Shown piece by piece: positions 33,652-62,000 of a DNA stretch of 64,000 bases. The position numbers and the translations under genes are program-made. The stretch is from Lysinibacillus sp. FSL W8-0992. Lineage in GTDB: Bacteria > Bacillota > Bacilli > Bacillales_A > Planococcaceae. The stretch's first letter is position 1; every line of letters begins with the position of its first letter. The notes below the pieces were generated by a model that had not been told where the DNA came from, ran no database searches, and saw only the letters and a program-made list of their open reading frames with translations. The DNA is taken from NCBI RefSeq assembly GCF_038008685.1, contig NZ_JBBOZQ010000001.1, positions 310,001-374,000 on the forward strand. The letters run 5' to 3'.

Positions 33652-33770
33652 CTCCCCTTATCTGCCAGATCCAAGTAAGAATCTGTAGGAATTAGCACCT
33701 TAGCAAGTTTGTCACTCACTGGTTGCCGGGCATCATAGGGCCTATCCCTCCGCCGCTCTTGATAAGAGTA
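33652..33770 (-). promoter_or_regulatory. SAM-I riboswitch (S box) aptamer controlling metY
   Basis: The minus strand reads CTCTTATCAAGAG, CGGCGGAGGGATAGGCCC, GATGCCCGGCAACC, GGTGCTAATTCC and CAGATAAG in order. These are the conserved S-box blocks from the P1 5' strand through the kink-turn and P3/P4 to the P1 3' strand. The terminator at 33603-33635 completes a transcription-attenuation switch. Confidence 0.95.
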
Positions 33771-42270: not shown

Positions 42271-43245
42271 TTGAAAGAAATTGCATTAGGCATTTTAGCT
42301 TCACTTTTTTTTGCTGTGACATTTATTTTAAATCATGCAATGGAAATGCAAGGAGGCAGTTGGCTATGGAGTGCATCCCTTCGTTATTTCTTCATGTTGC
42401 CATTTTTACTAGCTATCGTCTTCTATCGTAAGGGCTTTTCGCAACTAACTAATGAAATGAAAAGTAGACCTGTAGCATGGCTACTATGGAGCTTCGTTGG
42501 CTTCGTGTTATTTTATGCACCAATTACATTTGCTGCTGCATTCGGTCCGGGCTGGCTCGTTTCTGGAACATGGCAATTTACGATTGTCGCTGGGGTTCTA
42601 CTCGCTCCCCTCTTTGTAACAGTAATTGCTGGAAAAACAGTGCGTCAAAAAATCCCGTTAATTTCTTTGCTTATTTCATGTGTTATTTTAGCAGGAATTC
42701 TACTTATTCAAGTACCACAGGCACAGTCTGTTCCAACAAAAAATCTATTATTAGGAATTTTACCTGTTGTAGTCGCTGCATTTGCCTACCCACTCGGTAA
42801 TCGCAAAATGATGGAGGTATGCGGGGGACGTGTTGATACATTTCAACGGGTGCTTGGAATGACAGTTGCTTCAATGCCTGCTTGGATTGTGATGGCCATT
42901 TATGCCATTTTAACAGTTGGACTGCCTTCATTAAGTCAAGTTCTACAATCACTACTAGTTGGGATTAGCTCAGGTGTAATTGCAACTATTTTATTTTTCA
43001 TCGCAACTGATCGCGTTCGTGAACATCAAGGCAAACTAGCAGCTGTTGAGGCAACTCAATCAACTGAAATACTATTTGTCATTATTGGTGAGGCGTTACT
43101 ACTTGGAATTGCGTTTCCAGAGCCAATTGCTCTTGCTGGACTTGGTATTATTATTATTGGTATGTTGTTACATAGCTACTATACGATGGTGCTTGGAAAG
43201 AAAAGCGTTTCCCCACAATCTCCCCCTTCTGAGCAGTCAACTTAA
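42271..43245 (+). CDS. multidrug-resistance efflux transporter family protein (DMT superfamily)
   Basis: A 324-residue, ten-helix membrane protein of the EmrE-like efflux family in the DMT superfamily. Distinctive stretches are SLFFAVTFILNHAMEMQGGSWLWSASL (in part) at the N-terminus and VEATQSTEILFVIIGEALLL near the C-terminus. The tail is polar (KKSVSPQSPPSEQST). The start is TTG at 42271, about seven bases after AGGATG; no closer ATG fits. It is convergent with the Fur-box RNA candidate and DUF4395 gene and has no obvious terminator of its own. Confidence 0.8.
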   Translation: MKEIALGILASLFFAVTFILNHAMEMQGGSWLWSASLRYFFMLPFLLAIVFYRKGFSQLTNEMKSRPVAWLLWSFVGFVLFYAPITFAAAFGPGWLVSGTWQFTIVAGVLLAPLFVTVIAGKTVRQKIPLISLLISCVILAGILLIQVPQAQSVPTKNLLLGILPVVVAAFAYPLGNRKMMEVCGGRVDTFQRVLGMTVASMPAWIVMAIYAILTVGLPSLSQVLQSLLVGISSGVIATILFFIATDRVREHQGKLAAVEATQSTEILFVIIGEALLLGIAFPEPIALAGLGIIIIGMLLHSYYTMVLGKKSVSPQSPPSEQST

Positions 43246-43271: not shown

Positions 43272-43306
43272 AAAAAGGACGACTCATTCCGTATGAATGA
43301 GCCGTC
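43272..43306 (-). terminator. Rho-independent terminator of the Fur-box small RNA
   Basis: A 12-bp stem and five-base loop. Read on the minus strand, its one imperfect pair is G-U and a U5 tract follows. On the plus strand the same pair would be an A-C mismatch with no T-run. The hairpin therefore belongs to a minus-strand transcript. Confidence 0.85.
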
Positions 43307-43435
43307 TAGAGATTTTACGTTCCCAAAAAATGAGGGGGGTTTTAGGAGCGCTTTATGAACTAGCAAACTTCTGGAGAAAAGTAGCTAAAGTTCATCCTCT
43401 CTACACTTGTTTTGCAGAGAAGGAATAATCTTTAC
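43272..43435 (-). ncRNA. candidate Fur-repressed small regulatory RNA (FsrA-like)
   Basis: An RNA of about 165 nt is predicted from a near-consensus promoter (43443-43471) that is covered by a perfect Fur box, to the terminator at 43272-43306. It lies between convergent genes and has no reading frame with a ribosome site. Near its 5' end CUCUGCA/UGUAGAG forms a 7-bp hairpin. AUGAAC...UAGC pairs with GCUA...GUUCAU. The region between this and the terminator appears single-stranded and holds CGCUCCU and ACCCCCCUC, both complementary to Shine-Dalgarno sequences. Iron-starvation-induced RNAs such as FsrA repress iron-rich enzymes through C-rich loops. Identity with fsrA is inferred from logic, not alignment. 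Confidence 0.75.
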
Positions 43436-43438
43436 AAT

Positions 43439-43457
43439 GATAATGATAATCATTATC
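43439..43457. promoter_or_regulatory. perfect Fur box
   Basis: GATAATGATAATCATTATC matches the 19-bp Fur consensus at every position. It covers the -10 and part of the spacer of the minus-strand promoter, the expected geometry for repression by Fe-Fur. Confidence 0.93.
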
Positions 43458-43471
43458 AATTAAATTGTCAA
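43443..43471 (-). promoter_or_regulatory. sigma-A promoter of the Fur-box small RNA
   Basis: TTGACA (perfect), a 17-base spacer, TATCAT (five of six). The start is expected at about the G complementary to 43435. Confidence 0.85.
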
Positions 43472-43508: not shown

Positions 43509-43940
43509 TTATAATGCTTTCTTAAGTGTCCGTCTATATTGCCATTGCTTTAGCTGAAAATGTAAAAAGCAACCGATACAAAACCCTGCAATTGCAACTG
43601 ATGAAGCGATTGCTACCATCGTTGTAAAAACATACCCTACTACTTGCCAATTAAACAAAAACGCGACAAGACCACCAGCTAAACATATGCTTGCAATACT
43701 TGAATTAAACTTTTGCTGCTGTGCGTCCTCTGGTATGTACGCAGTAGGAGCTTTTTTCAAAAACAGCTTTCCAAATCGGATGATTGGATTAAAATTACAT
43801 AATACACCGAGTAAATTGGCTACTAAAGGAATCGCTAATATCCATTCAAACCCTGTCAGCCATGTCAGTATGACACTTAACAGTATAGTCCACTGATTGA
43901 GTCGTACGAGCGGCCTTGGAATTGCATGTGGCAATGACAT
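43509..43940 (-). CDS. DUF4395 family membrane protein
   Basis: A 143-residue protein with four membrane segments in two pairs. IPRPLVRLNQ at the N-terminus and the central CNFNPIIRFGKLFLKKAP followed by PEDAQQQKFNSSIA are characteristic of DUF4395. The second half contains GFCIGCFLH with two cysteines. Family function is unknown; members often neighbour thioredoxin-like or sulfur-transfer genes. AAAGGTAGG precedes the ATG. Convergent with the DMT gene; its transcript would run into the Fur-box small RNA unit, and no terminator is visible between them. Confidence 0.82.
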   Translation of the reverse strand: MSLPHAIPRPLVRLNQWTILLSVILTWLTGFEWILAIPLVANLLGVLCNFNPIIRFGKLFLKKAPTAYIPEDAQQQKFNSSIASICLAGGLVAFLFNWQVVGYVFTTMVAIASSVAIAGFCIGCFLHFQLKQWQYRRTLKKAL

Positions 43941-44057
43941 TTTAAAACCTACCTTTCAGATATGTTTAATGTATTTTACTACATTGCATTCCATTTGTGA
44001 AGTAAAAATGAATAACTTATAATTGAAGTTAATGATTGAAAAGAAAAGGTGATGACA

Positions 44058-44768
44058 ATGCCCGCTTTAACGATGGATCAAGTCAGACAACTGAATTCCT
44101 ACAGTATTTATACAACGGAGCCAAAACGAACGTTATTTACATTGGCTGATATACATAAAGACTTTTACCATCCTGATTTTTTAAATTTAATGATGGGCAT
44201 TACAGATGCTGCAACAGAAACAGCAGCCATTTCCCATTTTGCACGTCGCTATGGTATGTTTTTCGCTATGCAGCTTTATATGCTTGCTGCCTACGACGAA
44301 GTATGGGATGGTAAACCCATTGAAATTCGCTTTGATGCAGCTAAGGAATTCAATAGCTTTACTGTCGCAATGTTCGTTAACCCTAACGATTGGCGTTATG
44401 TGGATGAAGATGAGCGACAATCGGTCATTGAAAAAATTTTATATGACGGGCATGTTATCGTTCAGCAACTGCGCAGAGTAACATCGATTTCACCCTTAAC
44501 AATTTGGGAAAACTTCTTTGGCTACCTCCTTTGGCATTATCATATTCTGTTGTCTAACCCTGGCTTAGCAGATCAAGCAATGGATGATATTGAAATTTTA
44601 GAGAACCCAAAAACATGGGCTCGCTTTTCACAAAAATCATGGTGGGCGGAATATACTGGCGGTCAGAGCCCTACAAATTTAGTTAATGTTCCTGTCCGAA
44701 AATCTTGCTGCTTTTCAAAGGATATTCCAGGCCTACTTGCATGTGGATTTTGCCCACTTAAGAAATAA
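44058..44768 (+). CDS. FhuF-like ferric-siderophore reductase family protein
   Basis: A 236-residue soluble protein. Its C-terminus SCCFSKDIPGLLACGFCP has the exact C-C-x10-C-x2-C spacing that binds the [2Fe-2S] cluster in FhuF. The rest is divergent but consistent in size with FhuF (about 260). FhuF-type proteins reduce iron in hydroxamate siderophores in the cytoplasm. The gene lies about 620 bp from the Fur-box small RNA, though no Fur box is evident in its own upstream region. AAAAGG is eight bases before the ATG at 44058; the GTG at 44049 is too close. A terminator follows. Confidence 0.75.
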   Translation: MPALTMDQVRQLNSYSIYTTEPKRTLFTLADIHKDFYHPDFLNLMMGITDAATETAAISHFARRYGMFFAMQLYMLAAYDEVWDGKPIEIRFDAAKEFNSFTVAMFVNPNDWRYVDEDERQSVIEKILYDGHVIVQQLRRVTSISPLTIWENFFGYLLWHYHILLSNPGLADQAMDDIEILENPKTWARFSQKSWWAEYTGGQSPTNLVNVPVRKSCCFSKDIPGLLACGFCPLKK

Positions 44769-61501: not shown

Positions 61502-61762
61502 TTCCGCTTCCTCCCTTGAATTTTCGTTAAGTAAATGATTACGCTCCTATCTTTACACACTTACTATAATTTCGCAAAGGTTGTTCGCATTTTCCGTTCG
61601 TATTTGTGAAAAATATATGAAGCCATTCCATATAATCCAAGCCCTTTATATGTATAAATTTCATGTTTTATAGCACGTGCCCATTGACTTTTTTTCAAAA
61701 ACCATCTTACTTGCAAGTTTGTTTATCATGCCGTATTATATCCTTAAAGGCTGCATTGTTCG
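61502..61762. other. intergenic region left of the structured RNA
   Basis: AT-rich, about 260 bases. It contains repeated GTTCG motifs (61583, 61596, 61758) but no inverted CGAAC partner at LexA spacing, and no gene. Confidence 0.4.
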
Positions 61763-61768
61763 TATAAT
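61763..61768 (+). promoter_or_regulatory. -10 box of the structured RNA candidate
   Basis: A perfect TATAAT. The -35 at 17 bases (ATCCTT) is poor, so another sigma factor or an activator may be needed. Start expected near 61775. Confidence 0.4.
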
Positions 61769-61774
61769 ATTAAG

Positions 61775-62000
61775 TTTTAACCTTTAAGCTGTAAAAGGGA
61801 GTTTTATTATTGGAGTTGGAATGACGGGCCTCACACTTAGGTGCATGAGGATAAGCAGGAAAACTTCTGCGAACACCCACTTTGAGGAGTGGTGGTTTAA
61901 AACTTTCTATAAGAAATACGGCATACGCGGCTTTTACTTTAAATGTTGTTATATCAAGCTTTATATAGCATCTTAGCCAATTTGGTTAAGGTGCTTTTTT
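61775..62000 (+). ncRNA. candidate structured RNA of unknown class
   Basis: The unit folds into nested long-range helices. P1: TTTAA and GTAAAAG (61783-61797) with CTTTTAC and TTTAAA (61931-61943). P2: GGAGTTTTA (61798-61806) with TAAAACTTTC (61898-61907). Inside are three consecutive hairpins: CCTCACAC/GTG-CA-TGAGG (61829-61850), GCAGGA/TTCTGC (61855-61870) and AACACCCACT/AGTGGTGGTT (61872-61897). A strong terminator ends the unit. The match to 6S, tmRNA, SRP, RNase P or common riboswitches that I can recall is poor. An overlapping 51-codon frame (61821-61976, SD GGAG) starting MTGLTLRCMRISRK is the alternative reading. Confidence 0.6.
61967..62000 (+). terminator. terminator of the structured RNA unit
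   Basis: AGCATCTTA pairs with TAAGGTGCT, with GCC/GGT inside, followed by six T residues. There is no conventional gene just upstream on this strand. Confidence 0.88.

Follow-up and report, generated by a model that had tools for sequence, protein, structure and literature searches.

Genes and features at the locus

Within the window, i.e., the whole analysed stretch of 64,000 nucleotides from Lysinibacillus sp. FSL W8-0992, a predicted small RNA of about 165 nt lies on the minus strand (43272–43436), as indicated by its promoter, terminator, conservation, and fold. It is convergent with an EmrE-type transporter gene on the plus strand (42271–43245; PF13536, E 1.7e-108). A DUF4395 gene (43509–43940, minus strand; PF14340, E 1.9e-29) stands between the RNA and a plus-strand gene for a FhuF-like ferric reductase (44049–44768). 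The latter assignment is based on a match to TIGR03951 (E 1.2e-8, 35.2 bits, below the cut-off of 63.85), and the protein gave no Pfam match at E 0.01. The protein (44049–44765) ends in CC-x10-C-x2-C, which we take to be the iron-sulphur motif of FhuF. Elsewhere in the window, a SAM riboswitch (33655–33768, minus strand) and 6S RNA (61745–61937, plus strand) were found above their gathering scores.

Promoter, Fur box, and transcript limits

The minus strand carries a −35 element, TTGACA (43466–43471), and, 17 nt from it, a −10 element, TATCAT (43443–43448), an arrangement that is common in relatives as TTGACN-17-TATCAT. The Fur box GATAATGATTATCATTATC (43439–43457, minus strand) overlies the −10 element and agrees at 19 of 19 positions with the consensus scored here, presumably the classical Fur consensus. 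The 5′ end of the transcript is a predicted one, set 7 nt past the −10 element, and its 3′ end is placed at the close of the terminator T run. The intrinsic terminator (43272–43306, minus strand) consists of a hairpin at 43306–43278 and a T run at 43276–43272, and it varies between genomes; a terminator-like hairpin followed by a T run is found in 74 of the 84 distinct RNA copies described below. One G-U pair of the hairpin on the minus strand reads C-A on the plus strand. The first-pass annotation had reported this promoter, the perfect Fur box over its −10 element, and the strand-specific terminator pair, and all three were confirmed.

A pattern scan of both strands returned this Fur box as the sole site in the 64-kb window with at most three mismatches; the box is near-palindromic, so a single site scores on each strand. 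Shuffled windows gave a mean of 0.06 matches at the same threshold, and two matches occurred in 1 of 100 shuffles. Across the whole genome, the pattern scan found 5 perfect Fur boxes and, at up to three mismatches, 50 strand-wise matches compared with 10 for the reversed pattern. Several of these boxes directly precede genes that, judged by eye, resemble lipoprotein or transport genes, so Fur control seems to be active in Lysinibacillus sp. FSL W8-0992.

Conservation and taxonomic range

With a 219-nt query, blastn matched all 32 Lysinibacillus genomes searched at E values of 2.1e-57 or below, and several of them hold a second copy of the RNA. A covariance model (R2) was built from 25 sequences of a 131-nt core whose first position is the final base of the Fur box. 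It matched 102 of 261 genomes of the family, covering 13 of 19 genera, and 8 of 299 genomes of the class, all eight of which belong to the same family, Planococcaceae. These searches used strict filters that may miss weak relatives, and the RNA is called absent from the other six genera in the sense of not detected.

The family hits outside Lysinibacillus, excluding those already collected, were fetched (60 hits), and a zone comprising the 30 nt upstream and the first 6 nt of each hit was searched for a Fur box. A box with at most three mismatches was present in 55 of the 60, and the remaining five had four, five, six, six, and ten mismatches, the last being taken as chance. The threshold of three was reached by none of 3600 windows placed elsewhere in these loci, outside the surroundings of the RNA; in a first control, in which random windows could overlap the box, one of 60 windows did so in 18 of the 60 loci. 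The R2 model itself contains at most the last base of the box. TTGACN-17-TATCAT precedes 58 of the 60 hits. The conservation of promoter and Fur box in related genomes, to which the first-pass annotation had tied its reading, was thus checked and found outside the genus. A covariance hit with no Fur box and a missing C run (G040:C18) was taken as a chance match.

A pattern scan of named genomes returned 66 stretches, 63 of which come from Lysinibacillus, Metalysinibacillus, Metasolibacillus, Viridibacillus, Rummeliibacillus, Kurthia, Caryophanon, Psychrobacillus, Paenisporosarcina, and two records named Bacillus. The other three, from Cetobacterium, Ruminococcus, and Paenibacillus, had no R2 match at E 1 and were rejected. 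In Paenibacillus cisolokensis (L305, 7032–7118, minus strand), CUUUUCUCC and a hairpin containing CCCCCUC come after a Fur-box-like site; this arrangement, which R2 does not match at E 1, is perhaps an independent look-alike.

Extra copies of the RNA lie elsewhere in 8 of the 31 other Lysinibacillus genomes, one of which has a third, decayed copy, and three Caryophanon genomes carry two copies in tandem. Several genera also show a recurring further stretch like ACCCUUUAUAUUUUUCUUC downstream of the RNA (L073–L075, L132–L135, L142–L149). In the literature on Lysinibacillus and Planococcaceae, surveyed by title and mostly outside subscription papers, no Fur-controlled small RNA was found described. 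The RNA represents a genuine and apparently undescribed family of Fur-box small RNAs of the Planococcaceae.

Predicted structure and loop motifs

A 169-nt stretch covering the RNA folds at −55.2 kcal/mol (z −6.5), and none of 200 shuffles was equally good. Three stem-loops are predicted on the minus strand, and they recur in most single folds of 15 sequence-divergent members. Stem-loop 1 (43396–43422) is variable and covarying, as 9 of its 10 pairs are changed on both sides in some sequence. Stem-loop 2 (43355–43395), which carries CUUUUCUCC at 43381–43373 with CUCC as its apical loop, is indicated by the folds, the alignment, and the conservation of its motif. Stem-loop 3 (43318–43351) has the loop ACCCCCCUCA at 43340–43331 and is indicated by folds and covariation, with 10 of 11 pairs across both helices changed on both sides. 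In the alignment of 25 sequences, 93.9% of cells are paired, double-sided changes occur in 27 of 37 pairs, and the covariation score is 0.397 compared with 0.026–0.074 for slid structures; this alignment was fitted to the structure and so favours it, and the unfitted single folds mainly agree. The locus is a conserved, structured RNA gene.

The two motifs predicted to be exposed are the apical CUCC of CUUUUCUCC and the ACCCCCCUCA loop. The first-pass annotation had likewise proposed unpaired C-rich stretches suited to masking Shine-Dalgarno sites. The loops predicted to be exposed agree with this, but CGCUCCU, one of the stretches it named, falls in the predicted 5′ arm of the third stem. Overall, two loop motifs persist, CUUUUCUCC and CCCCC(C)UC. 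Among the 60 hits outside the genus, CUUUUCUCC is retained in 58, CCCCCUC in 56, and CCCCCCUC in 29, and the C run takes the form CCCCCCAU in two genomes and CCCCUC in one; these counts are freer than those from pattern-picked sets, though R2 was itself built from such cores. Both motifs are invariant in 32 cores that were selected by a pattern demanding them. The cores and copies (166 loci, 84 distinct) were picked by requiring TTATCATT, a UCUCC motif, and the C run, so invariance in these sets is partly by construction. Stems that change around loops that change little are the pattern expected of exposed pairing seeds.

It is extremely improbable that the transcript serves as the mRNA of a small protein or as a dual-function RNA. 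The frame in question encodes 11 codons (MNFSYFSPEVC) and overlies stem-loop 2. The identical peptide, the commonest one, is found in 21 of the 84 distinct copies, with near variants in a few more. However, by this count the other distinct copies lack the frame, its ATG abuts the purine run with no spacer, and its conservation is accounted for by the pairs of stem-loop 2. No frame is widely recurrent among the 84 copies, in agreement with the earlier description of the locus as free of reading frames. Taken together, conservation, covariation, and the Fur-box test give strong support to a putative Fur-repressed small RNA with C-rich anti-Shine-Dalgarno loops.

Gene order and probable origin of the promoter

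Synteny was studied by tblastn with the neighbouring proteins of the window against the 166 RNA loci, among which some genomes are counted twice and many loci are short. The FhuF-like gene was detected at 144 loci, and at 143 of these it lies upstream of and opposite to the RNA. The DUF4395 gene is located upstream in 66 of the 166 loci, some of them in other genera, and the EmrE-type transporter gene is downstream and convergent in 93. Among the listed loci that lack DUF4395, the distance between the Fur box and the start of the FhuF-like match is about 50–80 nt in five genera and about 150–350 nt in one. The proximity of this gene to the same Fur box in sister genera suggests that, ancestrally, a single Fur box probably served both the RNA and a FhuF-type iron reductase gene.

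This arrangement bears on the view that the sequence is a Fur-controlled 5′ leader or another cis element of a neighbouring gene that releases no free small RNA. Where the FhuF-like gene starts about 50–80 nt away, the box may indeed serve that gene. The first-pass annotation held that the Fur box cannot serve its neighbours, which fits the present locus but is questionable for the five genera with a divergent FhuF-like gene so close by. Nevertheless, the RNA runs away from the FhuF-like gene, has its own terminator, and faces a convergent gene here, and R2 detects a further copy elsewhere in 8 of the 31 other genomes of the genus. We regard a purely cis-acting element as very unlikely, and return to a free small RNA as the preferred reading.

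Candidate targets

Aconitase and sdh are reported to be under the control of both FsrA and IsrR (PMC11257911, PMC8216469; aconitase also PMC9410917). Such RNAs are further described as having C-rich regions that pair with ribosome-binding sites, with citB, sdh, and others as targets (PMC9410917, PMC12871923, PMC11257911, PMC8216469). In Lysinibacillus sp. FSL W8-0992, the Shine-Dalgarno site of sdhC is AAGGGGGGU, which includes a run of six G and is identical in all 16 Lysinibacillus genomes read. Of 397 start regions drawn from the window and from 400 kb of the same genome, only 5 pair with loop 3 as well as sdhC or better. The G runs of sdhC are not diagnostic, because they also precede the gene in other genomes of the class and in 2 of the 3 family genomes in which the RNA was not detected.

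The aconitase gene has the Shine-Dalgarno site AGGGGG in all 10 Lysinibacillus genomes read. Among 45 genomes, this site contains a G5 run in 27 of the 32 that carry the RNA versus 2 of 13 without it. Counted by genus, the ratio is 10 of 12 versus 1 of 7 (Fisher one-sided p 0.006, uncorrected for phylogeny). The exceptions with the RNA are two genera (g5 and g12) that have an ordinary AGGAGG site. The exception without it is genus g11, in which two genomes (G041 and G059) have a fumC leader with a Fur box and a CCCCCC stretch; the main RNA was detected in two other genomes of this genus. Against this background, 66 of the 397 sampled start regions pair with loop 3 as well as the aconitase site of relatives or better, and 42 contain a G5 run. 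Genes with an iron-sulphur-type cysteine motif, of which the sample holds only two and thus too few for a test, had a median loop-3 energy of −12.1 compared with −7.7 (p 0.08).

No acnA was found in the genome of Lysinibacillus sp. FSL W8-0992, where the Pfam Aconitase family matched a leuC-type gene alone, and the other 31 Lysinibacillus genomes gave at least two matches each. This may be a gap in the record or a real loss. Neither aconitase nor fumC was found in the 400 kb suggested by collinearity. In view of the sdhC runs without the RNA, the background of 66 and 42 among 397 start regions, and the aconitase gene not found in this genome, we grade sdhC and aconitase as likely targets, and the evidence on targets as a whole is suggestive only.

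Scans of the same genome for matching sites before ATG found GAGGGGG at 62 sites versus 25 for the reversed control, and TGGAGAAA at 89 versus 43 for the control. Frames of at least 40 codons follow 16 of the 30 GAGGGGG loci read (of 62) and 6 of the 30 TGGAGAAA loci read (of 89). Judged by eye, one of the genes at the loci read resembles an iron-sulphur enzyme (L218, CysH-like). The sequence GAGGGGGGCTTCATG occurs in 12 identical copies among the 62 GAGGGGG sites (e.g., G000:C1:500407–500421); none of the 10 copies read leads into a frame of 40 codons, and the string is probably part of a repeat.

Many of the genes that have G-rich sites in the pattern and energy scans do not look by eye like iron enzymes. 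The loops might accordingly act mainly elsewhere, on uptake, transport, or stress genes, or as a sponge for another RNA. On the other hand, matching sites are present at two of the classical iron-sparing targets, and across genera the one at aconitase tends to occur where the RNA does. A main role outside iron sparing is a minor possibility, and pairing with iron-enzyme mRNAs remains our preferred reading.

A second candidate RNA upstream of fumC

A second Fur-box promoter was observed ahead of fumC, which encodes an iron-free fumarase, with 158–251 nt between the −35 element and the start codon in 27 of 27 loci, all of which were selected from blast matches to the promoter. These loci come from the genus (L447–L466, L082, L088) and from other genera (L083, L084, L085, L093, L089). 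The leaders contain a CCCCC run in 26 of the 27 and UUUUCUCC in 20, and there is usually a terminator-like hairpin upstream of the fumC Shine-Dalgarno site. Neither blast nor the Fur-box scan found a match to this promoter type in the genome of Lysinibacillus sp. FSL W8-0992. Given the combination of Fur box, C run, and terminator-like hairpin, it is possible that the fumC leader yields an iron-sparing RNA or is an attenuator. Fur control of fumC has a precedent in Pseudomonas aeruginosa, as cited in PMC7377471.

We tentatively raise the idea of a two-part iron-sparing system of the Planococcaceae, comprising the RNA, which would have arisen head to head with a FhuF-type reductase gene, and a second Fur-repressed, C-rich RNA released from the fumC leader by early termination, with G-rich aconitase sites co-evolving; we consider this conceivable but doubtful. 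If it is true, one promoter event would permit the iron-free fumarase to be made and, through the RNA, shut down iron-sulphur enzymes that belong to the same cycle.

Proposed mode of action and significance

The mode of action that we propose is as follows. Iron-loaded Fur bound to the −10 box would repress the small RNA. When iron runs out, Fur would leave the box, and a transcript of about 165 nt would be made from 43436 to 43272, which is modelled to fold into three stem-loops and a terminator. CUCC within CUUUUCUCC and CCCCCCUC are complementary to G-rich Shine-Dalgarno sites, and the RNA would most likely pair with the ribosome-binding sites of iron-enzyme mRNAs, with sdhC and aconitase as first candidates. 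Pairing would block translation and spare iron, as with FsrA and IsrR. The RNA itself probably descends from a locus in which it and a FhuF-type reductase gene were served by one Fur box. We infer from these features that the locus quite probably encodes a trans-acting, Fur-repressed, iron-sparing small RNA of a separate Planococcaceae family.

Bacilli would thereby gain a third independent family of iron-sparing RNAs, in addition to FsrA and IsrR. The 13 genera with the RNA and the 6 without detection provide a natural comparison set, in which the aconitase site tends to accompany the RNA. For bacteria in which, by a survey of titles mostly outside subscription papers, no Fur-controlled small RNA has been reported, a covariance model and seeds open to testing are now available.

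Comparison with known iron-sparing RNAs

The first-pass annotation described the RNA as an FsrA-like candidate, the local counterpart of FsrA of Bacillus subtilis or a new member, and suggested a search with the fsrA covariance model. That model (RF02273), run with strict filters and a positive B. subtilis control, matched none of the 32 Lysinibacillus genomes. In 101 genomes it gave two matches at E 0.001, one of them above the cut-off; B. subtilis and one relative from the class were found. A 29-bit hit in another genome (G056) was dropped, as no Fur box lies in the 80 nt upstream. A scan of the locus with all of Rfam to E 10 returned no FsrA. PrrF scored 15.2 bits versus a cut-off of 90 on the promoter and Fur-box stretch (43464–43423), IsrM fell far below its cut-off, and both matches were rejected.

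Common descent with B. subtilis FsrA as a diverged member of that family is nevertheless worth weighing. The promoter logic is alike, with a Fur box over the −10 element, and the C-rich stretches here, like those of FsrA, would face Shine-Dalgarno sites; in a class relative (G073), FsrA reads CCCCAACCCCUCU and its terminator has a C-rich loop. The targets (aconitase and sdhC) likely overlap. However, FsrA consists of one terminator hairpin and has 83 model positions, whereas the present RNA of about 165 nt has three stem-loops and a terminator. In addition to the lack of RF02273 and Rfam matches, the FsrA locus (L039) yielded no R2 match at E 1. The FsrA-associated chaperone FbpB (PF13040) was found in none of the 25 Lysinibacillus genomes searched, with B. 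subtilis positive, and the taxonomic range differs. Descent from FsrA is unlikely, and the comparison holds as an analogy but not as homology in view of RF02273, FbpB, and architecture.

The predicted features of the RNA resemble those of IsrR, which PMC9410917 describes as Fur-repressed, iron-sparing, and 174 nt long, with stem-loops, a terminator, and exposed C-rich regions. By the same account, there are two Fur boxes at IsrR and its C-rich regions number three, compared with one box and two loop motifs here. The paper places isrR in all screened Staphylococcus genomes, and the present RNA is found in one other family; the two are set apart here by description. RsaE/RoxS similarly have C-rich regions that bind ribosome-binding sites (PMC8216469), but the locus has no Rfam match to them and carries a Fur-box promoter. 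The proteobacterial RyhB, PrrF, and BrrF share the iron-sparing logic under Fur control, yet the locus matches none of them except for PrrF on the promoter and Fur-box stretch. Such RNAs have been argued to result from convergent evolution (PMC9410917). By analogy, we read the RNA of the Planococcaceae as an independent family that would work like FsrA and IsrR.
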